The notes below the pieces were generated by a model, which was not told where the DNA came from, searched no databases, and saw nothing but the letters and a program-made list of their open reading frames with translations. DNA of 64,000 nucleotides from Alphaproteobacteria bacterium. GTDB lineage: Bacteria; Pseudomonadota; Alphaproteobacteria; DSM-16000; Inquilinaceae. The position numbers were made by a program, and so were the translations under genes. The stretch lies in contig JAAAOG010000217.1 in NCBI GenBank assembly GCA_009909005.1, positions 1 to 64,000 on the forward strand, in the 5' to 3' direction. Positions 7,301-63,023 of the stretch are shown here, piece by piece (position 1 is the first letter of the stretch; each line of letters starts with the position of its first letter).

Positions 7301-7559
7301 CCTGGGCATCGAGACCCGCATCGAAAGCAAGGCCCGGGCCATCGCCGCCCGGCTCGGCATCGGCAACAGCTATGTCAATCGCAGCATGATCGGCTCGGTC
7401 GTCGGCGTGCAGCCCTTCGGCGGCAACGGCCTGTCGGGCACCGGGCCGAAGGCCGGCGGGCCGCATTCCCTGCCGCGTTTCGCCAATGAACGGACCCTGA
7501 CGGTCAACACTGCCGCGGCCGGCGGCAATGTCTCCCTGGTCACGATGAGCGGCGGCTGA
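4359..7559 (+). CDS. putA: Bifunctional proline dehydrogenase / L-glutamate gamma-semialdehyde dehydrogenase PutA
   Basis: 1066-residue two-step enzyme oxidising proline to glutamate. The N-terminal half carries the FAD-dependent proline dehydrogenase barrel (GISVKLSALDPRFEP, RLVKGAYWDSEIKRA, QFATHNAQ, FQRLHGMGE). The C-terminal half is an aldehyde dehydrogenase with SPWNFPLAIFTGQ, FTGSVETA, general-base E820 in AETGGQN, and nucleophile C854 in GQRCSALRV. The protein starts directly at the dehydrogenase arm; no ribbon-helix-helix DNA-binding domain is seen, so unlike the roughly 1320-residue E. coli form it should not repress itself. No adjacent putR-type regulator or putP transporter is present. 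The start is the ATG at 4359 with GGGAG just upstream. Confidence 0.96.
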   Translation: MSFTVSLPPAHDAARAAIDRAHAAPEAAIAADLLPRARLPDETRVRVQERAAALVRGVRENRRAFGGLDSFFQLYGLSSKEGVALMCVAEALLRIPDEATAEKLIAEKIGGSRWEDHLGQGDGLFVNASTWALMLTGRVLTLDGPREAGPATVLNRLVKRLGEPVIREALRHGMKIMSRQFVLGRTIEDAIARAAPARKRGYGFSYDMLGEAARTRSDADRFFESYSHAIAVLGSQGGGARASDPMQAPGISVKLSALDPRFEPLQRDDAYALLTDRLRRLALAAKHAGIGLCVDSEEADRFNLTLDIVAAVYADPELEGWDGFGLALPAYQKRALAVLEWLAGLVRAHGRRLPIRLVKGAYWDSEIKRAQERGLDAYPVFTRKAATDVSYLACSRYLLDRRDLFYPQFATHNAQALAYIETLAGDEGGFEFQRLHGMGEPLYDQIVSGRTPVRVYAPVGGYEELLAYLVRRLLENGANSSFVNRLRDDALPVATIIADPVEALATAEPKANPAIPLPPDLYGPARRNAAGLDFGEPAALRPFLERMARSAERLWHAAPMLGDRRGDGETAGPSGLAGTADGPGAEPRACLAPADRRHEIGSVADTTPADVDRALGIAAGAWRGWDARGGAARADILDRMADLLEENRAELMALAVLEAGKILPDALAEVREAVDFCRYYAAEARRLMAGPQELPGPTGEENTLSLGGRGVFVCISPWNFPLAIFTGQVAAALVAGNAVLAKPAEQTPLIAHRAVRLFREAGVPPEVLQLLPGDGAAVGGRLVGDPRTAGVAFTGSVETARAINRMLADRPGPIVPLIAETGGQNAMIVDSTALPEQLVLDVIESAFRSAGQRCSALRVLFVQEDVADRMLSMLAGAAATLRVGDPAHIATDVGPVIDREALAMLQDHAARMDREGRRLFAVAPGPDAAHGTFFGPVAYEIDGLDRLEREVFGPVLHVVRYAENRLDQVLAAIEASGYGLTLGIETRIESKARAIAARLGIGNSYVNRSMIGSVVGVQPFGGNGLSGTGPKAGGPHSLPRFANERTLTVNTAAAGGNVSLVTMSGG

Positions 7560-7583
7560 GGCGCCGGCCGGGTCAGTGCCCGA

Positions 7584-8315
7584 CTAGCCGGTCAGCCGGT
7601 GCGCCCGGAGCCGGTCATAGATCGGGCGGCAGACATCATAGGCCGCCTTCGTCGCCGGGATCGCAAGCACCGCTCCCTCGGGACTCTTTTCCGGCGGCAG
7701 GAAACCGGAGCTTGTCTGCACCGTTTGGTGCCAGGAACCGCTTTCCCACCAGGCCAGTTGCGGCCGCGGCTTGGCCTCCCAGTGAAGCGCCTCCGGCCGG
7801 AACGGCAGGCCGGTCTCCCGGCAATAGGCCTTGACGATCTCGTCCGGGCGGCGGCAGAGATCGTCGGCATCGATCACCACGGGCGGCCGGTCGGCGACGG
7901 CCCAGGCAAGATCGAAGAGGCGGCCGAGGGCCGTATATCCGGCTTCATCGAGCGTAAAATCCGGCCATTTTTTATAGAGGGACGGCAGCAGATCTCCCGG
8001 GTCGCGTATCAGGAAAGTATTGGTAAATGCGGACACGAAGCCCCCGCCGAGTCTGGGGAGCACGCTATATCCCATCTCCTTGAAGAAAACCTGACCGCTT
8101 TTTGATTTTTCGAGAATTCCATCAAGGACAGTCGAATAATTGTGTTCCGGCATCGGGCGAATGTCGCCCTTCCGGCTGCTTTGCCGGTCCTCGCTATAAT
8201 AGTAGGAGGGGCCGAACGGCTCATGCAGGACCGTGACGTCGCCCCGTTGCATCATCATGACTTCAAAAGCGGTCGACACCGATCGCGGGCATGCCCACAG
8301 GGCGAGCGGTTTCAT
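7584..8315 (-). CDS. Sulfotransferase family protein
   Basis: 243 residues starting with a typical sulfotransferase 5'-phosphosulfate loop, ALWACPRSVSTAFE (P10-E18), then LHEPFG. The second cofactor motif, NTFLIRDPGDLLPSLYKKW, lies near the middle. This is the small bacterial family also seen fused in plant branched-chain-aminotransferase-like proteins; substrates are mostly unknown. It would transfer sulfate from PAPS to a small molecule. The start is the ATG at 8315, with AGAGGAG 11 bases upstream; in-frame extension adds 27 residues with no support. It is divergent from an aminotransferase and two methyltransferases and probably belongs to the same pathway. Base composition is more A+T-rich than the putA side. 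Confidence 0.85.
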   Translation of the reverse strand: MKPLALWACPRSVSTAFEVMMMQRGDVTVLHEPFGPSYYYSEDRQSSRKGDIRPMPEHNYSTVLDGILEKSKSGQVFFKEMGYSVLPRLGGGFVSAFTNTFLIRDPGDLLPSLYKKWPDFTLDEAGYTALGRLFDLAWAVADRPPVVIDADDLCRRPDEIVKAYCRETGLPFRPEALHWEAKPRPQLAWWESGSWHQTVQTSSGFLPPEKSPEGAVLAIPATKAAYDVCRPIYDRLRAHRLTG

Positions 8316-8802
8316 GGCGGTCGACACTCCTCTTCTCTCCGGGACCCGGCATGGAAACTGGCAACAAAGGTTAAGACACGGAGCGCCGACTCGCAAATCA
8401 CGCGGCTCGTGCCATCAAAAACCTTAGAAGAGTTCCGTGAATTCACCCTCGAAACGGATGCTTGACAGTCTCCTTGATAAAGGGATAAACACCATACAGG
8501 CGATCAGCAAGTCAATCGGATACAGGAACACACATCGTGTGATTCGACCTGTCCGCAGCTGGAATAAGGCTGAAACAATTCTGACACGATCAAATGGGAT
8601 TCGGCGGTCCTTTGCTCTTGCAGTCGATCTCCTCCAACCGTGTGGCTGAAGTACCAGGCCGCGGCGGGCATCGATGAGACCGCGTTTTGCTATCCCAATT
8701 CGATAACACGCAAAGCCGGAATTGGGCAGGTGTCCTCCCTTTATGATCGTGACCGTGCCGGCCCGGCCGCCTTTCCCTCCCAACCGAAGATGAGTACTTG
8801 CC
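8316..8802. other. Divergent intergenic region of the accessory cluster
   Basis: About 490 bases, visibly richer in A+T than the flanks, between the leftward sulfotransferase and the rightward aminotransferase. Short open frames exist on both strands, but none has a convincing ribosome site or a recognisable product. It probably holds the promoters of both transcription units (see the candidate at 8462-8489). No riboswitch or RNA gene was recognised. Confidence 0.5.
8462..8489 (+). promoter_or_regulatory. Candidate sigma-70 promoter for the aminotransferase operon
   Basis: A perfect TTGACA at 8462-8467 is followed after 16 bases by GATAAA at 8484-8489 (four of six matches to TATAAT). If used, it gives a leader of roughly 300 bases before the aminotransferase start at 8803. 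The long leader is unexplained, so the true start site could be nearer the gene. Confidence 0.35.
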
Positions 8803-9969
8803 ATGGTATTGTCTGTTTTGCCTCTGCCGTCAGAGCAGCTGGAGTTTCAGATGTTTGTCATGGACGAACTGGCGGATTCTGCAATTCGCGAGGGCCGTGA
8901 CGTCATCAAGTTGACCATAGGCATTTCCGAGCTTCCGGCGCCGGACCCGGTGCTGGAGGTTTTTTCGACAAAGGTCTATGACCTGGAGACGACGCGCAGG
9001 GTTTTCCCGGAAGGGCTTCCTGAGCTTCGCCACGCAATCGCTGAGTATTACCAGCAGAATTTTTCCGTCGATTGCGACGCGCGGCAGGTCATCGTCAATG
9101 CCGGTACGTCGGCCATATTTCGTAACCTCTTTCAGTTGACGTGTCGATCGGGCCAGAAAATCCTTCTGCCGCGCCCGTTTTACTGTCTCTATCTTCTTAG
9201 TTCCCTGTTGGCAGGCGCCGAGTTGTCTTTCTACGACGTCGATCCGGAGACCATGCGTCTCGATTTGGCATCGTTCCGACAAGCCTACACGCCGGCCGAC
9301 ACCGCTATCGTCGTCCTGAACAGCCCGGGCAATCCGCTCGGCAATGTCTTGACGAGAGAAGAAGTCAAGGCGGTGAATGATATCGTCGCCGGCCGATCGC
9401 TGATCGTCCACGACGAGATCTACAATAATGTCATGTTCGACCGGCCCTATGAATGCCCCTTGTCCTATCTTGATCGATATCGCGACGTCCACATCGTCAC
9501 GAATGCTTTTTCGAAAGGCTTCCGGATGTATACGAAACGCATCGGCTATGCGATTCTGCCGGAGCCATTGATTATGCCGATGCGTATTATTCAGCAGCAT
9601 ACCCTTCTGACTTGCGATCCGGTTGCCCAGCTCGGCATGGTGGAGGCGTTGAAGGATCTGGACGGCCCGCGAGAGCTGACCCGGCTCTATGCCGGCCGCG
9701 GCGCCTATACGGTCGACCGGCTGGCGGAGACCGCGTGCCGGCCCTATCGGCCCGCCGGCGGGTTCTACGCCGTTCTCGACGGGTCGGAATGGATCCGAAG
9801 ACACGGGATGGGTGACGGCAAGGATCTGGCGCGCGACATCCTGGCGAAGACCGGCGTGTCGACCGTGCCGGGAACCGATTTCGGCCTGCCGAATACGCTC
9901 AGGCTCAGCTTCTGCAATGATCGCTATAATGAAGGGATCGACAGGCTGCGGGATTATTTCAGCGCCTGA
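8803..9969 (+). CDS. Class I/II PLP-dependent aminotransferase
   Basis: 388 residues of the fold-type I aspartate aminotransferase superfamily. The phosphate/substrate region reads VLNSPGNPLGN. The aldimine lysine should be K238 in AFSKGFRMY, and the carboxylate-binding arginine lies in NTLRLSFCN near the C-terminus. It would move an amino group between an amino acid and a 2-oxo acid; specificity cannot be read. The first half uses more A/T-ending codons than neighbouring housekeeping genes, suggesting transfer. It starts at ATG 8803 and is followed after 77 bases by two overlapping methyltransferase genes. Confidence 0.9.
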   Translation: MVLSVLPLPSEQLEFQMFVMDELADSAIREGRDVIKLTIGISELPAPDPVLEVFSTKVYDLETTRRVFPEGLPELRHAIAEYYQQNFSVDCDARQVIVNAGTSAIFRNLFQLTCRSGQKILLPRPFYCLYLLSSLLAGAELSFYDVDPETMRLDLASFRQAYTPADTAIVVLNSPGNPLGNVLTREEVKAVNDIVAGRSLIVHDEIYNNVMFDRPYECPLSYLDRYRDVHIVTNAFSKGFRMYTKRIGYAILPEPLIMPMRIIQQHTLLTCDPVAQLGMVEALKDLDGPRELTRLYAGRGAYTVDRLAETACRPYRPAGGFYAVLDGSEWIRRHGMGDGKDLARDILAKTGVSTVPGTDFGLPNTLRLSFCNDRYNEGIDRLRDYFSA

Positions 9970-10046
9970 GACGGCCCGCGCGGCGGCGTCGGCCGGGATC
10001 TCCACCCGGTCTCCACACTGACAATCAAATGCATAAGGGGCAAGCC

Positions 10047-10769
10047 GTGTCGCTCTATGACCAGATCGGCCCGATCTACGATCTCATCTATCCCGGCACC
10101 GCCGAACGGGTCCCCTTCGTCCGCGATCTCCTGCAATCGCTGGGGGTGTCCACCGTGCTGGAGCTCGGGGCCGGCACCGGCCTTTACCTCCACCCGCTGG
10201 TCGAGGCCGGCCTCGACGCGGAAGGCCTGGAAATCAGTGACGGCATGATCGCCGCTGCCCATGGCAAGAATCCCGAACTCGTCTTTCATGCGCAGGATGC
10301 GCGATCATTCTCGCTTGGCAAGCGGTACGACGCCATCCTTGCCTTGAGTTCGTTCTTCGTCGTCCTCGAGGAGGAGGATGCGATCGGGGCATGCCTGCGG
10401 TGCTGCCTCGAGCATCTCAACCCGGGCGGATATCTTCTCGCCGAACTGCCCAACCATGATGTGGAAATCGCCGAGATGGACGGCCGGCAAGAGGTGTTCC
10501 GCACCGAAGACGACGGGGTCGCCGTGATCATCCAGTCCTGGGCCAGCGAGACGCAGTGGAATGAGGACTGGCATGTCTTCGAGAGCGGGCCGGACGGGTT
10601 CTCCAACCGCTCGGTCCGTTGCGCGGAATGGCGCTTCGACCCGGCGGCCATGCGCGCGCGTTTCGAGGCGGAGGGGCTGGTGATGCACCGGCACTGGGGC
10701 GATCTCCTGGGGCGGCCATTCGAGGCCGGGCGGTCGCCGCGGCATGTCTGGTTGTGGCGGCGGCCATGA
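10047..10769 (+). CDS. Class I SAM-dependent methyltransferase
   Basis: 240 residues. SAM motif I is VLELGAGTGLYLHPL and the acidic residue after strand 2 is in AEGLEISDGMI. Motif IV-like LALSSFFVVLEEED and post-motif NPGGYLLAELP complete a Rossmann methyltransferase. The start is placed at GTG 10047 because AAGGGG lies six bases upstream; an ATG at 10029 in frame has no ribosome site. It sits between the aminotransferase and a second methyltransferase, whose start overlaps this stop (ATGA). The substrate is unknown; N- or O-methylation of the aminotransferase product is a reasonable inference. Confidence 0.85.
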   Translation: MSLYDQIGPIYDLIYPGTAERVPFVRDLLQSLGVSTVLELGAGTGLYLHPLVEAGLDAEGLEISDGMIAAAHGKNPELVFHAQDARSFSLGKRYDAILALSSFFVVLEEEDAIGACLRCCLEHLNPGGYLLAELPNHDVEIAEMDGRQEVFRTEDDGVAVIIQSWASETQWNEDWHVFESGPDGFSNRSVRCAEWRFDPAAMRARFEAEGLVMHRHWGDLLGRPFEAGRSPRHVWLWRRP

Positions 10770-31245: not shown

Positions 31246-31274
31246 TTTTGTGTCCGGTCGAATCGTCCTATATT
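31246..31274 (+). promoter_or_regulatory. ssrA: Candidate promoter of the tmRNA gene
   Basis: TATATT at 31269-31274 is a good -10 element, with TTTTGT at 31246-31251 as a weak -35 at 17-base spacing. An inverted repeat GGACA-N7-TGTCC (31239-31255) overlaps the -35. Transcription would begin near 31280, close to the expected 5' end of the acceptor piece. Confidence 0.4.
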
Positions 31275-31275
31275 C

Positions 31276-31625
31276 CGGGCTGTCGGGAAACCGACTATGG
31301 CGATAAACCCCTTGCGGAATAGGCGTAGCGGACCCGGGGGCAGTACCCGGCGCCTCCACCAAATTCCGGTTGGCATGCGGATTGACCAGGATGAGGACAA
31401 CCGCGGTGATCGTTGCTCTAAGGGGGCGAACCAGGATCGACGTGCGTAGTAAAGGCAAGGTCTTCGCCCGGCATGGTACCGCCGTTATCGGGCCACAAGC
31501 ACAGTTGCCAACGACAACTTTGCTGAGGCACGCCTCGCCGCTTAATCGCGGTCGGGTGAGCCACTCTTAAGTCCTCGGTCCTAGCAGGCCGGGGCGCGGT
31601 CAGGGGGGCACCGGGCAACAGAAGC
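31276..31625 (+). ncRNA. ssrA: Circularly permuted two-piece tmRNA (ssrA)
   Basis: The acceptor piece comes first and ends in CGCCTCCACCA (31351-31361). The coding piece begins downstream at GGGGGCG (31422-31428). These pair as a seven-base acceptor stem with a G-U at the third pair, the alanine identity element. The interval 31362-31421 would be removed during processing. The tag frame is GCC at 31507 to TAA at 31543-31545, encoding ANDNFAEARLAA, a typical degradation tag ending in LAA. Permuted tmRNA is the known alphaproteobacterial form. It rescues stalled ribosomes together with SmpB. Outer ends are approximate. sspB, the tag adaptor for ClpXP, follows directly. Confidence 0.93.
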
Positions 31626-31640
31626 CCCCCGCTTCGATTC

Positions 31641-32923: not shown

Positions 32924-33074
32924 CCTTCTCTCATCAGGCGAAAAGACGAAGCGATCGCGCGACCCGTTCTGCGGGCTTGCAGCCCGGGCGCGGCTCGGCA
33001 ATGATCCCGTCCGTGAAACGGCCCGCCACCGGGCGGGTCCGGCCGGGGCCCGAAGACGACAAGGAACCGAAGCC

Positions 33075-33557
33075 ATGGCGTATATCGATCGGGACCATTT
33101 CATTGCCCTGCTCGAGCGGCTGGGCAGCGACCGGGACGCGGACGTCCTTGAGGCCGCCCGGGAGATCCACCGCACGCTGCATGAGGTCGGCATCGGCTGG
33201 AACGACCTCCTCATCCCCGATGACGAGGAGGAGGATGAAGACGACGACGAGGCCGAAGACCGCCTCGACGAGGAAGAAGAATACGAGCTCGACGAGGACG
33301 ACGAGTACGACGACGAAGATGACGAGTACGAATATGAAGAGGATGACGACGAAGAATTGTCCGAAGATGATGAGCCTGTCGAAGACACCAAGGACGACCG
33401 GGCGCTGATCGAAAGGATTTTGCGGGACTTCAAAATTTCCGAAGATACGCGCGATGACCTTCAGGATTTGAAAGACGATATCGAAGAGGGTTTGTTCACC
33501 GAATCGGACCGCCGTTACCTGCAGGCGCTTATCGCCCGGCTGGAAGGACAGAAATAG
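33075..33557 (+). CDS. Extremely acidic protein of unknown function
   Basis: 160 residues in three parts. An N-terminal helical segment (1-47) reads YIDRDHFIALLERLGSDRDA and HRTLHEVGIGWNDLLIPD. A stretch of about 55 residues is almost wholly Asp/Glu with scattered Tyr. The C-terminal helical segment (about 105-160) reads RALIERILRDFKISEDTRDD and SDRRYLQALIARL. No signal or membrane segment is seen. The start is ATG 33075 with AAGGA nine bases upstream. The two ends resemble each other in spirit with relatives in Rhodospirillales, but I do not recognise a named family. Roles in binding basic protein or DNA-mimicry are guesses only. Confidence 0.75.
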   Translation: MAYIDRDHFIALLERLGSDRDADVLEAAREIHRTLHEVGIGWNDLLIPDDEEEDEDDDEAEDRLDEEEEYELDEDDEYDDEDDEYEYEEDDDEELSEDDEPVEDTKDDRALIERILRDFKISEDTRDDLQDLKDDIEEGLFTESDRRYLQALIARLEGQK

Positions 33558-33783
33558 TATTCGGCCGCCAAAGCAAATAGCGGCTTCGTGTCTTTCTCAG
33601 GGGATGAGGAAGCGCAGGCCGTTTTGCGCTCGGCCATTGCAAGAATTCCAGTGAGATGATTTCACCTGGAACCGACGGGGACTCTTGGTCACTGGGACAG
33701 ATTGCCCGGAAGTAAGCACCCGTTAACCGAAATCCGGCAAGATCGGTAATCGGAGGATTGCTCGACATAAGGGAACCACAGCC

Positions 33784-33933
33784 ATGCTTGAGCAGTTGCA
33801 ATCGGTACCGCCCTGGCTTGTCATGGTCGCCGCACTGGCTGCCTGGATCGTGGCGCTCGCCGCTCTGCCGCTGATCGGCCGCGCGGTGAATGCCGTCACC
33901 GCGCTGCTGAACGGCCCGCTGTCCCGGGCCTGA
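33784..33933 (+). CDS. Small single-span membrane protein, 49 residues
   Basis: ATG 33784 to TGA 33931-33933, preceded by AAGGGA at nine-base spacing. The product begins MLEQLQSVPPWLVMVAALAA and contains one hydrophobic helix (about 10-30), then GRAVNAVTALLNGPLSRA. It is unrelated to anything I recognise. The good ribosome site, Gly/Arg boundary after the helix and G/C-biased third positions favour a real gene. The 33558-33783 gap upstream shows no gene and includes its probable promoter. Confidence 0.5.
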   Translation: MLEQLQSVPPWLVMVAALAAWIVALAALPLIGRAVNAVTALLNGPLSRA

Positions 33934-34006
33934 AGACCCTGCCCCTCTCAAGACCGGAACAAGGACGGGCGCCCCGGCAGCGACGGCGCCCGTTCCTCAT
34001 CCGGAC

Positions 34007-34276
34007 TCAGTGCAGCACCAGCTCGCCATTGCGGTAGTGCAGCTCGGCCGGCTTGACCAGCTCGGCCGTCGCCACTTTCACCGAGTGCAGCGGTCCATCG
34101 ATCTCCCGCACCCAGAAATCCAGGAATTTCCGCAGCTGCGGCAGCTTCGGCAGCTGGTCGAGCGTCTGCCAGACGAAGGTCTGCAGGAATTCCGGATGAT
34201 CCGGCATGTGATACAGGATCTCCGCGGTGACCAGGCGCGCGCCGCGCAGCTGCAGTCCCAGGTCGCTCATGATCAT
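34007..34276 (-). CDS. usg: Usg family protein
   Basis: 89 residues matching the alphaproteobacterial Usg family: LGLQLRGARLVTAEILYHMP, DHPEFLQTFVWQTLDQLPKL, FLDFWVREIDGPLHSVKVA, ELVKPAELHY. The family was named from an open frame in the Caulobacter trp region; its role is unknown. AGGAGGG lies eight bases before ATG 34276, favouring this start over the ATG two codons in. It is divergent from groES, and the 34277-34543 region between contains no other gene. Confidence 0.88.
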   Translation of the reverse strand: MIMSDLGLQLRGARLVTAEILYHMPDHPEFLQTFVWQTLDQLPKLPQLRKFLDFWVREIDGPLHSVKVATAELVKPAELHYRNGELVLH

Positions 34277-34543
34277 GTCGTTTCCCTCCTACCGCCATCG
34301 GCGGGCCCGTCCCCGCTTGTCTCCGTAAAAGAGGGGCTCCGCCGCCCTGTTGCGCCGATACGACCGTCGCCGTCGCCGGATAGCCTGACCGTCCGGCGCA
34401 CGATCGCGTCCCGATGGCTCCCACTCCCGATCTTTTCGTTCACTCTGCCTGTTTACAGTTAACGGCGGCAAGTGTGAATTGGCAATTAAATCAGCGATTT
34501 AGCAGCTTTCAGGGGGAAGTGCTGCCAGCGCCGGCGTGACATC

Positions 34544-36716: not shown

Positions 36717-37132
36717 CTCAATCAAAAAGAATCAACGGAGGAACTTTAGCCGGAGCGCCCGAACTACAAAAGGTTTTGGCTTCTTTTCGGGCGTTTCCGG
36801 TTGTCCTCTATATGGCTATTAAGGCTGGACTATTGCAACTTTTATAGATTGAGTTCCGCGGCATCATTTTCATATAGATGTCACTTCCCGGTTCAAGCGC
36901 CCCCCTTGCCGACCTTCTGCTTGCGACGGTGCGGGCCGGGAAGACTGCCGGGCCGGACCCCGTCTGCGGGGCCACGTCTCGGCGTTGCAGAGACCATAGG
37001 ACGGTTCTTTTGGCAAGCAATGGACGGGGTCTAAACCCTTTAAGAGACGAGGCCTAGAACATTTTCTTGTGCCTTCCCTCTCGTTCAGTTACGCTACTCA
37101 GTCTGAAGTGTCTTTGAAAAATGGAGAATATC
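36717..37132. other. A+T-rich leader of the subtilase insert
   Basis: About 415 bases without a credible gene, distinctly richer in A+T than groEL. It marks the left side of an insert that ends after 38952. No integrase, tRNA, or direct repeat was recognised that would define the junction. Short frames lack ribosome sites. The promoter of the subtilase gene must lie here. Confidence 0.5.
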
Positions 37133-38695
37133 ATGACGACGATCCTCGGCCGGCAACTCAGTGGCGATTATCACGATAACCTTTTGCAGGTAGAATTGAA
37201 TGAGGAGGCGGAGACAATTCGCCCGGTGGTATCACTCCTCCCTCAGGCTGTTGCCGCTACTTCGGAACAGAACCCGTCACGGTTCTTAGAGTTCGTCAAA
37301 AATTACTGGAAAGACTTTGAATCCGCATCGAGCTCACCCGGCATTGCCTACTTGGGAGGCATGGCAAGGCAACATAAGGTCCGAGACTTCAATGCTATCG
37401 TATCAAGAATGAAGCCGATGCTCGGCTTGCTCCTTCCGGGGATAGAGCAGCTGCCTACTGGTGGGCCGGTATCGGGTTTGTTGTCTTTGCTCTTGCCATT
37501 GCTCGGTAGCCAGGAAACGCAATCACCCGCAAAAGCGAAAAAAAGCTCGATTGGTAAGTCCGTTATCTATGAACTCGATGATGGCGACAACCTGAGTAAC
37601 CTTGAACAAACCCTGCTGCAAGACCCTGCCATCAGATCCGTTTCTAGAGTGCCGATCCGATATCTGCTGAACAACAATACCGACTCAACGCCTCCCTCAG
37701 AGATAGCCTGGAATTTGAAACGGATCAAATGGCAGGCGGCCAGAAGCAGAAACAGCTTCAAAGATGCCGGAAGGATAAAAATTGCGGTGCTCGATACGGG
37801 GATCGATCCAGCACACCCCGACTTGAATGACAAAGGATTTCATTACGAATGGTTCGAGGATGGTCCGAGTCAGACAAGCCCGGCGGACATCGTTGGGCAT
37901 GGCACTCACGTCGCGGGTATATTGACAGCAAACTTCAATAACGACATCGGCATAAGAGGCATCTGTGAATGTGACTTGCATGTTTATAAAATTTTTTCAG
38001 ACAAGCCGTTCTATGTGAGAAATGGAAACTATTTCAGTTACGTCGTCGATCCTATCATGTATCTTTCTGCTCTTTCAGAATGTCTTGAAGCAGGCATTGA
38101 TGTGGTAAACCTCAGCATCGGTGGGCCGGGGCAGCCCAGCACCGCCGAGCTGGCGGCATTTACAGATCTGTTGGACAGCGGGACCATTATTGTCGCTGCC
38201 ATGGGCAATGAAAGAGCTTGGGGCAGTCCGATTATGTATCCGGCTGCCATTCCTGGAATAATCGCCGTCGGAGCTACGAACATTGATGATGGAATCGCGT
38301 CGTTTTCGAATGCCGGAAGGCACATTTCGCTTGTGGCCCCCGGGGTCGACATTTGGTCAACGCTACCCACTTATGCAGGGCATAGCGTATTGGAGGCGGT
38401 GTACGATCTGCAGGGCAGACCGATTCCGGGTAACCCGACCCCGCGGGAAGTGAGCTATGCCGCATGGCCGGGCACGTCGATGGCCACGCCGCACGTCGCA
38501 GCTGCGGTTGCATTGGCGAAAGCGAACTGCACACGGGATATTGACGCTTTGGCAATGCGCCGGCTGCTGCAAGACTCCGCCGAAAGGGTTCCGGGAATGA
38601 AGGAAAGTGGGCTGGATCAGGACTTCGGGGCGGGCCGACTCAATTTGGAGCGGCTCCTGGACGCGGTGGAAGTCTACGAGAAAGGAACGCAATAA
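37133..38695 (+). CDS. Subtilisin-like serine protease (S8) with uncharacterised N-terminal region
   Basis: 520 residues. The S8 domain starts near 214: catalytic D221 in IAVLDTGIDPAHPD, H256 in VGHGTHVAGI, oxyanion Asn in AAMGNERAWG, and S449 in PGTSMATPHVAAAV. Residues 143-178 (VIYELDDGDNLSNLEQ, RSVSRVPIRYLL) look like an I9-type propeptide. The first 130 residues match nothing I know and include a hydrophobic stretch (about 94-124). No signal peptide is seen, unusual for a subtilase. ATG 37133 has GGAG eight bases upstream; an ATG four codons earlier is weaker. Codon use is more A+T-rich than the flanks. Its stop overlaps the next start (TAATG). Confidence 0.9.
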   Translation: MTTILGRQLSGDYHDNLLQVELNEEAETIRPVVSLLPQAVAATSEQNPSRFLEFVKNYWKDFESASSSPGIAYLGGMARQHKVRDFNAIVSRMKPMLGLLLPGIEQLPTGGPVSGLLSLLLPLLGSQETQSPAKAKKSSIGKSVIYELDDGDNLSNLEQTLLQDPAIRSVSRVPIRYLLNNNTDSTPPSEIAWNLKRIKWQAARSRNSFKDAGRIKIAVLDTGIDPAHPDLNDKGFHYEWFEDGPSQTSPADIVGHGTHVAGILTANFNNDIGIRGICECDLHVYKIFSDKPFYVRNGNYFSYVVDPIMYLSALSECLEAGIDVVNLSIGGPGQPSTAELAAFTDLLDSGTIIVAAMGNERAWGSPIMYPAAIPGIIAVGATNIDDGIASFSNAGRHISLVAPGVDIWSTLPTYAGHSVLEAVYDLQGRPIPGNPTPREVSYAAWPGTSMATPHVAAAVALAKANCTRDIDALAMRRLLQDSAERVPGMKESGLDQDFGAGRLNLERLLDAVEVYEKGTQ

Positions 38696-38952
38696 TGTCC
38701 GAAGTTATCGAGTTAGTATTGGAAGATGGGTTAACTGAGGAGGATCGGGAACGGGTCCTTTCGGAAGTTTCGGCAATCGAGGGCGTCAGCCGCGCCGGTC
38801 TGATCCGGCCTTCGGCCAAGACCGCGCTCGCGCGGAAGCTGGGCTTCGCAATGGTCGATGAGACATCGGATCAATCCGCCGTTCTCGACCGGATTCGCGG
38901 CGTCAAAGCCATCAGAAGCGCGGAGATGCCAAGCCAGCGCTTCATTATCTGA
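38695..38952 (+). CDS. Small protein coupled to the subtilase; possible propeptide-like inhibitor
   Basis: 85 residues. The pattern is strand (IELVLEDG), helix (EEDRERVLSEVSAI), strand (GVSRAGLI), then strand (GFAMVDET), helix (SDQSAVLDRI), strand (GVKAIRSAEM). This beta-alpha-beta repeat matches the ferredoxin-like fold of I9 propeptides and in-trans subtilisin inhibitors. The ATG shares one base with the protease stop (TAATG), so the two are translationally coupled. I infer it controls or helps fold the protease; homology is not established. No export signal is seen, consistent with the protease also lacking one. Confidence 0.7.
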   Translation: MSEVIELVLEDGLTEEDRERVLSEVSAIEGVSRAGLIRPSAKTALARKLGFAMVDETSDQSAVLDRIRGVKAIRSAEMPSQRFII

Positions 38953-59960: not shown

Positions 59961-60081
59961 GCGTGCCTCCGTGTCAGCGCGGCGCAGCATAGGGCGCCTG
60001 CCGCCATCACGGGAAACGCATTGTGGTGATTGCATCGATCAGCGTGCGTGATGCGGCCTCTCGCCGTTCCCGGCCGCGACA

Positions 60082-61332
60082 TCACACGATCCCATCGTCA
60101 TCCAGAATCGTGCGGGAGGCGGAGAGGCTGGTGGCGCCACCCGGGAAGCCGGCGCCGAGCGGGGCGAAGATTTCGAGGGAGAAGACTTCGTCCGGTTCCG
60201 CCTCGATATCGCCGAGGATTTCGACCGGGATCACAAGATTCTCCTGGCCAGGGTAAAGCACGACCTCGCCGGATGCCGGGATGAAATCCTCGCCGGCCTG
60301 GGCGGTGCCGGAGACGGTGCGGTACGAGACGCTGGCTTCGCGCGTCAGAAGGGAACTCAGCTCAAGGAAAAAATAGGCGAGCGTCGTTCCGTCGTCGCCT
60401 TCCGCAATCTCGAAAACCACCTCGTCGCGCGACTGCGGACGGTCCGGGAAGGATGCCTGCATCTGTTCGTCGATCCAACGGTCGAAAAAGGCGACGCGCG
60501 TGTCGACGCTGAATTCTCCGAATGACGAGTTTTCCACATCGTCATTGTCGGTCACCACGCCGTCTTCGCCGCCCAATCCGAAGCTGGTGATGCCGGCAAG
60601 TCTGCCCTCGACAAAACCCGGGCCGCCGGAATCGCCGTTGGTGGTGTTCACCTCGTCGGCCCCGAAGCCGCGATCGGTGATGCCGAAATATTGGCCGGAC
60701 GCATCCCGGGCGGCCGAGCCATCGTCGAAATCGAAAATCAGGCCTTGAGCATTGTCGCTCGACAGGTCGGGAACGGTGCCGTCGTCGAAGTAGAAGTCGT
60801 CCAGATCGATCGCGAAATCGTATTCGTTCCATCCGTAGCGTTTGACGGGCGCGGTTTCGAAGTCCTCCGTGCCTTCCGCCCCGGTGCCGCGGATGCCGAA
60901 GCCGACCTTGGTGAAGGGCTTGCCGGTGTCCTCGTCCAAAGCGCGGAAAATATCATAGCGTTCGGCACCAGGCGGTGCGGGCTCGTCCAGAAAAAGGATG
61001 CCAATGTCGTTTCGTGATGCGGGATCGTCCGTATCCCATTCCGGGTGGATGACGAGGGACGACGCGGTAACCTCGGTGACGCCGTCCGCGAGGTGGAAGA
61101 GGACGGAGAAGAACGCGCTCAGCTCGTCCGGTGGCACCTCCTCGATGACATGCGCCGCCGTCAGGATCGCTCGCCCGCCATACAGCAAGGCCCCGGTTCC
61201 GGCCAGCTCGCCCTCGGCGTCAATCCGGACGACGCCGTCGAAGCCCATGCCGGGTGCCACATGATAGTCCGGGTCGTCGGGATCGTCCGTCGGGACCGCA
61301 ATGAACGGCGTAATCCCTGTCCAACCCGTCAG
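60082..61332 (-). CDS. Trypsin-like serine protease with C-terminal Calx-beta domain
   Basis: About 416 residues from the proposed CTG start. The S1-type domain has GTGALLYGGRAILTAAHVI (His), SRNDIGILFLDEP (Asp), and TTNGDSGGPGFVEGRLAGI (Ser). The C-terminal 115 residues are a Calx-beta domain (VSYRTVSGTAQAGEDF, VLYPGQENLVIPVEI, SASRTILDDDG). No ATG lies between the frame start at 61602 (inside the opposite gene) and 61248. A perfect AGGAGG (61338-61343) precedes an in-frame CTG at 61332. Starts at GTG 61260 or ATG 61248 are alternatives. No signal peptide is seen; relatives are often secreted by type I systems. Confidence 0.75.
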   Translation of the reverse strand: MTGWTGITPFIAVPTDDPDDPDYHVAPGMGFDGVVRIDAEGELAGTGALLYGGRAILTAAHVIEEVPPDELSAFFSVLFHLADGVTEVTASSLVIHPEWDTDDPASRNDIGILFLDEPAPPGAERYDIFRALDEDTGKPFTKVGFGIRGTGAEGTEDFETAPVKRYGWNEYDFAIDLDDFYFDDGTVPDLSSDNAQGLIFDFDDGSAARDASGQYFGITDRGFGADEVNTTNGDSGGPGFVEGRLAGITSFGLGGEDGVVTDNDDVENSSFGEFSVDTRVAFFDRWIDEQMQASFPDRPQSRDEVVFEIAEGDDGTTLAYFFLELSSLLTREASVSYRTVSGTAQAGEDFIPASGEVVLYPGQENLVIPVEILGDIEAEPDEVFSLEIFAPLGAGFPGGATSLSASRTILDDDGIV

Positions 61333-61477
61333 AGAAGCCTCCTGTTCTTGAATGCCGCATGGATTTGCGTCAGAGAATATCCGCCTGAGAGGCGCATGAT
61401 CGTTGATCGCCCCTTTCCAAAAAGCAACGGAAATTCGGCATAGCGGCGGGACGCAAGTGGGACGGGACAGGACGGCG

Positions 61478-62311
61478 ATGTCGAACCCCTGCCGCCTCGC
61501 CGTCTTTATGGCGCGGGAGGCGCCGCTCGCCGTGGTGCTGCGGCGGGGCCCGAGCGCCTGGGCCGGGCTGGTGCTCTGGGATCGGCGAACCGACAGCTTC
61601 ACGCCCGGCCAGTGGTTTCACGGCCGGGTCTATGGCCGGCGTTGCGACCTGTCGCCGGACGGCCGTCTGTTCGTGTACTTTGCCGCCAAGTTCGGGGCGC
61701 GCGCCGATCCCGACGACATCGGCGAGGCCTGGACGGCGATTTCCCGGCCGCCCCATTTCACGGCGCTGGCGCTGTGGCGCAATATCGGGGCCTGGTATGG
61801 CGGCGGGGCGTTTCGGAGCAACCGCGACCTGTTGCTCGATGCCACCTGCACCATGGAGACCCATCCGAAGTTCCCGGTGAAGAGACTGAAGCTCGCGCCG
61901 TGCCCGCGCGACAGCGCCCCCTGGGAGCAGCGGTTGCTGCGCGACGGCTGGTCCCTGGTCGAGCGCGGCTTCGATCCGCGCACCCACCACCGCCTGGGCC
62001 GGCGGGAGCTCTGGCAGAAGCCGCATCCGGAGGGCAGGGTGTCGCTGTGGCGGGAGGTCGAGGATATCGATTTCCGGCGCTATGGCGGGCTCTATGCCGA
62101 CAGCTACTGGCTGGAAACGGCCGACGACCTGATCCCGCTGCCCGGCGCGCGCTGGGCCGAGTGGGACGGTCCGCGGCTGGTCTTCACCCGCGCCGGCCGG
62201 CTCTTTGCGGCGGCCCTGTCGCCGGACGGTTTGCGGGAAACCGAGCTGTACGATTTCAACCCGCTCCGCCCGCAGACTTTCCCTGCGCCCGACTGGGCGC
62301 AGCGTTGGTAA
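61478..62311 (+). CDS. Conserved protein of unknown function
   Basis: 277 residues, soluble, rich in Trp and Arg: APLAVVLRRGPSAWAGLVLW, PGQWFHGRVYGRRCDLSPDG, LFVYFAAKFG, GEAWTAISRPPHFTALALW. The repeated strands and W motifs suggest a beta-propeller-like fold. I have the impression of a widespread bacterial family without assigned role. ATG 61478 has AGGA six bases upstream. It is divergent from the trypsin-like gene and converges on the toxin gene. Confidence 0.8.
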   Translation: MSNPCRLAVFMAREAPLAVVLRRGPSAWAGLVLWDRRTDSFTPGQWFHGRVYGRRCDLSPDGRLFVYFAAKFGARADPDDIGEAWTAISRPPHFTALALWRNIGAWYGGGAFRSNRDLLLDATCTMETHPKFPVKRLKLAPCPRDSAPWEQRLLRDGWSLVERGFDPRTHHRLGRRELWQKPHPEGRVSLWREVEDIDFRRYGGLYADSYWLETADDLIPLPGARWAEWDGPRLVFTRAGRLFAAALSPDGLRETELYDFNPLRPQTFPAPDWAQRW

Positions 62312-62320
62312 AGTCTTCCA

Positions 62321-62653
62321 TCAAGGGAGGTGGCGTTTCAGGTCCATGGAATCATGAAGAATGCGGACAATTTCAATAACATTGCCGACTTTGGCGCGAT
62401 ACAGCAGGAAATGACGCCCCCGACGCCTCGTGTCCGCGACAGGAAGAGTTCGAATTTCACGGCTGACATCGTTTCGACTACGAGAACCCCGTATGTGTGG
62501 CCCTTTACCTAATCTCTGAATGCTGAAATTTATCATACGTATATATAGATCTGCCTGTTTCTTCCCAAAATTAAGAGTTGTCCACCGAATTATATCCGAA
62601 AAATCCTCTTCCGCTTTCTGGCCCAGGATGACCGACCAATGCTCTTCGCTCAC
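62321..62653 (-). CDS. RelE/ParE family toxin
   Basis: 110 residues: ILGQKAEEDFSDIIRWTTLN (first helix), SREIRTLPVADTRRRGRHFL (core), and VIEIVRILHDSMDLKRHLP, the family C-terminus. Members either poison gyrase (ParE) or cut mRNA (RelE); which applies here is not clear, though the pairing with a ParD-like partner favours ParE. The GTG start overlaps the antitoxin stop (GTGA). Region is A+T-rich. Confidence 0.88.
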   Translation of the reverse strand: MSEEHWSVILGQKAEEDFSDIIRWTTLNFGKKQADLYIRMINFSIQRLGKGPHIRGSRSRNDVSREIRTLPVADTRRRGRHFLLYRAKVGNVIEIVRILHDSMDLKRHLP

Positions 62654-62958
62654 TTGCTTGTTTCATCTCTTTCAGCCAAGGCTGCAGCAATCGCCTGTTC
62701 CCCCACAGTGTCCAGATGCATCACGAGGTCGTCGAAACTCTCGAAGAGTTGCCCTTCTCCCCGCTCCAGGGATTCGATCCCAAGCCGGGCAGCGTCGCGG
62801 AGCGCCTCGAGACGGGCTGCATCCTCTTTCTCCCTCGCCTCCACCAACCGCAAGCCCTCTCTTAGAACCTCCTCGGCGTCACGATAGCGGCCGCTTGCAA
62901 CCAGGTCAGTCACAAGCCTATCTTGATGATCCGTCAGCTCGACATTGCGATTGGGCAT
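62650..62958 (-). CDS. ParD-like ribbon-helix-helix antitoxin
   Basis: 102 residues. The N-terminal ribbon-helix-helix (NVELTDHQDRLVTDLVASGR followed by YRDAEEVLREGLRLV) should bind operator DNA. The helical, charged C-terminal half should wrap the toxin. ATG 62958 has AAGGGA about ten bases upstream. It is the first gene of the two-gene leftward module, as is usual for autoregulated ParDE loci. Confidence 0.88.
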   Translation of the reverse strand: MPNRNVELTDHQDRLVTDLVASGRYRDAEEVLREGLRLVEAREKEDAARLEALRDAARLGIESLERGEGQLFESFDDLVMHLDTVGEQAIAAALAERDETSK

Positions 62959-63023
62959 GGTTTTTCATTCCCTTTCAAAGCCGCAAGTGTAGTCGCCTCT
63001 TCCCAGGCTTGCAAGGTCCCACA

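Follow-up and report, generated by a model that had tools for sequence, protein, structure and literature searches.

A signal-less subtilase translationally coupled to a small propeptide-like protein: a candidate protease-inhibitor pair in an alphaproteobacterial contig

The closest documented precedent for the gene pair described here is PopC/PopD of Myxococcus xanthus, a regulated developmental protease and its inhibitor. PopC is a subtilisin-like protease of about 50 kDa that lacks a signal peptide and has an N-terminal part without recognised domains; PopD, which is encoded in the same operon, forms a complex with PopC and inhibits it, and once PopD is degraded in starvation, PopC is secreted (PMC6434023, PMC4320627). 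We analysed a 64,000-nucleotide stretch (the window) of Inquilinaceae contig JAAAOG010000217.1, in which an S8 subtilase gene is followed directly by a gene for an 85-residue protein. Our reading of this pair, to which we give a probability of roughly 60%, is that a signal-less subtilase zymogen is kept inactive by a stand-alone propeptide acting in trans.

The two genes overlap by one base at a TAATG, in which the stop codon of the protease runs into the start codon of the small gene, as an initial annotation made from the sequence of the window had recorded; the relatives of the pair likewise show overlaps or short gaps at this junction. Because a Shine-Dalgarno-like AAAGGA lies within the protease gene and precedes the second ATG, the small gene probably combines translational coupling with a ribosome-binding site of its own. 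The protease has two candidate start codons, ATG 37121 and ATG 37133, that share one stop codon, and the second is the likelier start because a GGAG sits 6 nt ahead of it. Counted from ATG 37133 the protease has 520 amino acids; the residue numbers used below are counted from ATG 37121, which gives 524. The coordinates of all features are collected in Table 1.

Table 1. Features of the protease and small-protein locus, in window coordinates.
Feature	Position	Strand	Evidence
S8 subtilase gene	37133..38695	+	Pfam Peptidase_S8, upstream GGAG, hydropathy
Small gene, 85 codons; product with predicted ferredoxin-like fold, proposed trans-acting propeptide/inhibitor	38695..38952	+	AlphaFold, conservation, HMM-HMM
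GGAG, 6 nt upstream of ATG 37133	37123-37126	+	Sequence
TAATG: protease stop TAA (38693-38695) and small-gene start ATG (38695-38697), one-base overlap	38693..38697	+	Sequence
Shine-Dalgarno-like AAAGGA within the S8 gene, 8 nt before the small-gene ATG	38681..38686	+	Sequence
Low-GC island: both genes plus roughly 380 bp of non-coding DNA ahead of them	36740..38952		GC and GC3
Predicted I9-type propeptide domain, terminal strand SRVPIRYL with invariant R-x-P-x-R	37169..37663	+	AlphaFold, Foldseek, profile against 3whi
Window-specific low-confidence insertion with hydrophobic stretch (VSGLLSLLLPLLG)	37403..37546	+	pLDDT < 50, residues 95-142
Catalytic S8 domain	37709..38659	+	Pfam, residues 219-505; Foldseek TM-score about 0.85 (target-normalised) against mature subtilisins
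Catalytic Asp, D225 (D221 in the initial annotation)	37793..37795	+	Invariant in subfamily
Catalytic His, H260 (formerly H256)	37898..37900	+	Invariant in subfamily
Catalytic Ser, S453 (formerly S449), in GTSMATPH	38477..38479	+	Invariant in subfamily
C-terminal tail PSQRFII of the small protein, with R82 conserved; predicted to be unstructured and proposed to insert into the cleft of the active site	38929..38949	+	Alignment A5; pLDDT

The sole Pfam match of the protease is Peptidase_S8 (E = 5.1e-46), and its Asp-His-Ser triad stands in the D-T/S-G, H-G-T-H and G-T-S-M-A motifs. The intact subtilisin triad of the initial annotation is thus borne out, and so is its statement that the protease carries no signal peptide: no signal peptide, transmembrane segment or N-terminal hydrophobic segment was seen in the protease when Kyte-Doolittle hydropathy was averaged over 19 residues (maximum 1.4).

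About 130 N-terminal residues of the protease had been left unassigned, with a hydrophobic stretch remarked among them. AlphaFold modeling of the full-length protease (19-row alignment; predicted local distance difference test, pLDDT, 70.6; predicted template modeling score, pTM, 0.73) places in this region a strand at residues 17-26, helices at 28-83, strands at 87-93 and 147-152, a helix at 158-166 and a strand at 171-178, after which the catalytic domain begins. The best match of the model in a Foldseek search of the PDB is unprocessed pro-subtilisin E, 3whi (target template modeling score, TM-score, 0.78 over 410 columns), followed by mature subtilisins, fervidolysin and pro-Tk-subtilisin. 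A ten-member sequence profile of the protease extends into the propeptide of 3whi, and in the subfamily alignment R176, P178 and R180 are invariant in the last propeptide strand. Because the modeled topology, the structural match to 3whi, the profile alignment into it and the invariant R/P/R strand agree, the N-terminal residues are predicted to be the protease's own I9-type propeptide, acting in cis. A Fervidolysin_NPro-like match is found in two of ten subfamily members; Pfam I9 itself has no match on the protease N-terminus. The hydrophobic stretch does exist, within a poorly modeled insertion between propeptide strands 2 and 3, and has no counterpart among the aligned relatives; it is therefore read as a local insertion and not as an export signal.

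The small protein is predicted to have a related shape. Its AlphaFold model (ten rows, pLDDT 83.2, pTM 0.68) has the strand (E) and helix (H) order E-H-E-E-H-E, with elements at residues E3-9, H15-26, E31-36, E49-54, H60-68 and E73-77, and its last four residues (82-85) are predicted to be disordered (pLDDT < 50). In a comparison of hidden Markov models (HMM-HMM), the second halves of the small protein and of the cis propeptide aligned in register over 37 columns (score 26.6, P = 3.8e-5); 200 column shuffles scored 9.2 on average and 18.2 at most, and the reversed alignment scored 13.1. The C-terminal motifs are also alike, approximately V-E-S-A-x-[IL]-P-x-x-R in the small family against V-x-S-V-x-R-V-P-x-R in the propeptide. 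These results support a small protein with a predicted I9 topology and a second half remotely similar to the cis propeptide, which is how the propeptide-like partner of the initial annotation fares under modeling and profile comparison.

Several results pull the other way. The HMM-HMM probability is just 34-71%, and the alignment covers the second half alone. Pfam Inhibitor_I9 matches none of 12 small-protein members, and E74, otherwise conserved, is an Arg in the protein from the window. Searched against the PDB, the small-protein model retrieves generic ferredoxin-like folds (HMA domains, FtsX and ribosomal protein S6; best E = 1.2e-3), with no I9 structure among the top 50 Foldseek matches, and ferredoxin-like folds are widespread. 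Because these matches are generic, the predicted fold is compatible with I9, and so not unrelated to it, but it is not diagnostic. Compared with the sequences of solved structures, the small-protein profile found no I9 match, and searches of the small protein with Pfam, NCBIfam and PADLOC gave nothing at a meaningful level.

Among the Pfam results below that level are weak NapD matches in three of the 12 small-protein members (best E = 0.039), which bear on a different role for the small protein: a dedicated, NapD-like folding or export chaperone that would hold the unfolded or pro form of the protease, or mask an export determinant, rather than inhibit it. Small ferredoxin-like chaperones such as NapD share its shape, PopD is documented to block secretion, and classical propeptides unite the roles of chaperone and inhibitor (PMC6993865). 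However, the predicted cis propeptide is already complete and should suffice for folding, the sub-threshold NapD match is explained by the shared fold, and the strongest likeness of the small protein is to a propeptide, including the Pro/Arg tail. We consider a pure chaperone unlikely.

The pairing itself is consistent. Every subfamily member examined has the small gene immediately behind the protease gene, so that homologues of the protease, whose co-occurrence with the small gene the initial annotation had proposed to check, always stand beside it. The small-protein profile (A4) matched an open reading frame (ORF) beside every close relative and beside none of the generic S8 loci, and it matched the Pirellulaceae small ORF, from outside its build set, at E = 1.9e-10; there, the protease and the small gene share one reading frame. 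The Labilithrix partner was spotted by eye and recovered at E = 1.2e-19 by a wider profile (A5), which includes that partner. Away from a protease, the 398 Pseudomonadota and 237 Myxococcota genomes searched gave a single case of the small gene; it is a second, nearly identical copy in the Labilithrix metagenome-assembled genome, or MAG, where a contig end truncates it (G756:C376, 34282-34500).

The pair is also uncommon, although its rarity is approximate because the genome scans are samples. It is present once in the source genome. The small protein had no subfamily match in 17 genomes of the source's own family, and besides the window there was none in 385 genomes of its class, searched with the protease, or in 398 genomes of its phylum, the Pseudomonadota, searched with the small-protein profile. 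Among plasmids, the protease turned up on Sinorhizobium megaplasmids and in Deinococcus sp. QL22, with about 50% identity, and the small protein turned up in Methylobacterium nodulans. Genome contigs, when scanned, yielded further cases in Ensifer/Sinorhizobium species, a Pirellulaceae MAG and the Labilithrix MAG. The holders of the pair are thus the window, Sinorhizobium/Ensifer (69 plasmid records, with 69 carrying the small gene and 69 the protease, and seven species genomes), M. nodulans, Deinococcus, the Pirellulaceae MAG, Labilithrix, and genomes G920 and G993. A subfamily protease is present in three of 237 Myxococcota genomes, where it scores 490-543 bits while no other S8 protein exceeds 191 bits, and in all three a small gene follows it within about 50 nt. 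The remaining Myxococcota S8 proteins that were read mostly look exported, and none has a small partner. In the Planctomycetota, the pair is found in one of 392 genomes, which is the starting genome, and viral contigs yielded generic S8 proteins but no subfamily member. From this distribution, the pair appears to be a rare module spread by horizontal transfer and often borne on plasmids.

Both genes are under purifying selection in Sinorhizobium (median ratio of nonsynonymous to synonymous substitution rates, dN/dS, 0.16 for the small gene and 0.08 for the protease). Because the two genes are conserved together across phyla and under purifying selection there, their association is more than chance. 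Across ten loci, the identities of the proteases and of the small proteins correlate at r = 0.94, calculated from 45 non-independent pairs.

On pSymA of four S. meliloti strains, the protease is disrupted by an IS30 insertion (ml21 and ml45, which carry the identical insertion and are not independent), an internal deletion (ml59) or a frame break (ml46; loci L163, L164, L165 and L166), and the small gene is intact in all four; an intact protease without the small gene was not seen. This asymmetry, together with the patchy, plasmid-borne distribution and a match of the protease to the generic subtilase model of PADLOC (E = 1e-23), could speak for a toxin/antidote or defence module, in which the protease, once triggered, would kill the cell or bring it to arrest, with the small protein as antidote. 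However, the protease offers mutation a six-fold larger target, which makes the asymmetry a weak argument. An IetAS defence system has an IetS subtilase with an adjacent IetA ATPase; matches of the protease to IetS are partial and weak (at most 18.8 bits), neither an IetA-like ATPase nor another defence gene adjoins the pair, and none of the loci read showed a defence neighbourhood. The toxin/antidote or defence role put forward in the initial annotation is, in our view, very improbable.

Other copies show further rearrangement. On pMNOD01 of M. nodulans (L008, 2030-5216), an inversion next to IS66 elements has split the protease gene: the N-terminal part now reads from the other strand, and the C-terminal part has kept its place ahead of the small gene. 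In Sinorhizobium fredii USDA 205, a truncated second protease N-terminus precedes the intact gene by about 1.8 kb (L020, 3607-3852), which suggests duplication and decay.

One relative suggests a possible role for the pair as a leader peptidase of ribosomal peptides, that is, a maturation protease that the small protein would guide or restrain. On a plasmid of Deinococcus sp. QL22 (L012, 1173-7699), an operon-like run encodes an APH kinase, a HopA1-LanC fusion, the S8 subtilase, its small partner and an LLM-class flavin-dependent oxidoreductase. An APH kinase, a HopA1-type lyase and a LanC-type cyclase form the class V lanthipeptide enzyme set, and because of this run the Deinococcus pair may mature a peptide there. 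The protease of the window also matches, below its cut-off, the NCBIfam model for QhpE, a maturation subtilisin. Against a wider role of this kind, the neighbourhood of the pair lacks modification enzymes both in the window and in the other lineages that were read, the class V set being found only in the Deinococcus relative, and no obvious lanthipeptide precursor gene lies beside the Deinococcus operon. The context is not general, and peptide maturation is a most unlikely function for the pair as a whole.

A zymogen restrained by a detached propeptide therefore remains our preferred explanation, and we propose the following mechanism. The cis I9-type propeptide would fold the protease and be the first to cap its active site. 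The 85-residue product, made straight afterwards through translational coupling, would then bind the mature enzyme in the manner of a free-standing propeptide. Known complexes of subtilisins with propeptides show the propeptide sheet packed against the catalytic domain and the C-terminal tail lying in the cleft like a substrate, and stand-alone propeptide mimics inhibit subtilases (PMC6993865). By analogy, the sheet of the small protein would pack against the catalytic domain, with the P-x-x-R tail at its C-terminus inserted into the substrate cleft. The protease would stay silent in the cell until the small protein is removed, which proteolysis could bring about, or until the protease itself exits the cell; binding, inhibition, release trigger and substrate are matters of inference here. 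Protease and small gene would move between bacteria as one unit.

The pair also stands out in base composition. The G+C content (GC) is 0.53 in the protease gene and 0.58 in the small gene, and at third codon positions (GC3) it is 0.585 and 0.674, respectively, compared with 0.929 in groEL and 0.910 in leuC. The pair stands alone between groEL on one side and thpR on the other. The A+T-richer DNA initially annotated as an insert is indeed foreign-looking; the word insert reflects base composition only. No convincing flanking repeats or tRNA were found around the pair as marks of insertion, and 14 relatives, in none of which groEL adjoins thpR, offer no empty site for comparison. Other stretches of lower GC (about 0.59-0.63) lie in the window at 7500-10500, 33000-34500 and 60000-63000. 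The window also contains a tmRNA gene at 31269-31636, with the tag ANDNFAEARLAA.

We now compare the pair with described subtilase systems. Pro-subtilisin E, pro-Tk-subtilisin and fervidolysin have the catalytic fold and, as predicted for the window protease, an N-terminal cis propeptide; the pair differs from them in its separate second propeptide-like copy and in the lack of a signal peptide. To our knowledge, all three of these proteases are exported, and none is accompanied by a further propeptide gene. On a Vibrio fortis plasmid (L013, 3770-6163), an S8 gene is likewise followed directly by a small gene with a propeptide-like product. In contrast to the pair, both Vibrio proteins have apparent signal peptides, the protease belongs to another S8 subfamily and the small protein is not detected by profile A4; this exported analogue is annotated only as 'ATPase'.

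Stand-alone I9 inhibitors (POIA1, yeast proteinase B inhibitor, Arabidopsis SPI-1, TgMIC5 and Plasmodium SUB1-ProM) are eukaryotic, whereas the pair is bacterial, and the small protein differs from them in being translationally coupled to its protease and in having no detectable I9 sequence signature. Plasmodium SUB1-ProM is, like the small gene, encoded next to subtilase genes (PMC6993865). The stand-alone subtilase propeptide inhibitors described in that paper are all eukaryotic, and the pair would be a compact, operon-coupled bacterial example. It would also show how a potentially harmful intracellular protease can cross phyla together with its own brake.

With PopC/PopD (the popCD operon; PopD is MXAN_0207), the pair shares a signal-less subtilisin-like protease and an adjacent gene, which in the window is small and lies downstream. 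This architecture supports a similar mode of action, as a likeness of arrangement and not of compared sequence. Two scans of the Myxococcota for PopC/PopD gave no assignable candidate, the subfamily members there being those of the three genomes above. PopC secretion, the starvation trigger and the CsgA substrate are features of PopC/PopD with no known counterpart in the pair. The structural basis of PopC/PopD is not described in PMC6434023 and PMC4320627, and the pair gives sequence hints to a binding mode. Because it occurs in the laboratory strain S. meliloti 1021, the idea of a trans-acting propeptide is open to direct experiment. A broader proposal, which we regard as possible but doubtful, is that a mobile bacterial module found across phyla, a signal-less subtilase regulated by a detached duplicate of its propeptide, is a general switch that has been recruited independently, for example to lanthipeptide maturation and to symbiotic plasmids. 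Myxococcus PopC/PopD would then be the sole studied case of such a switch.
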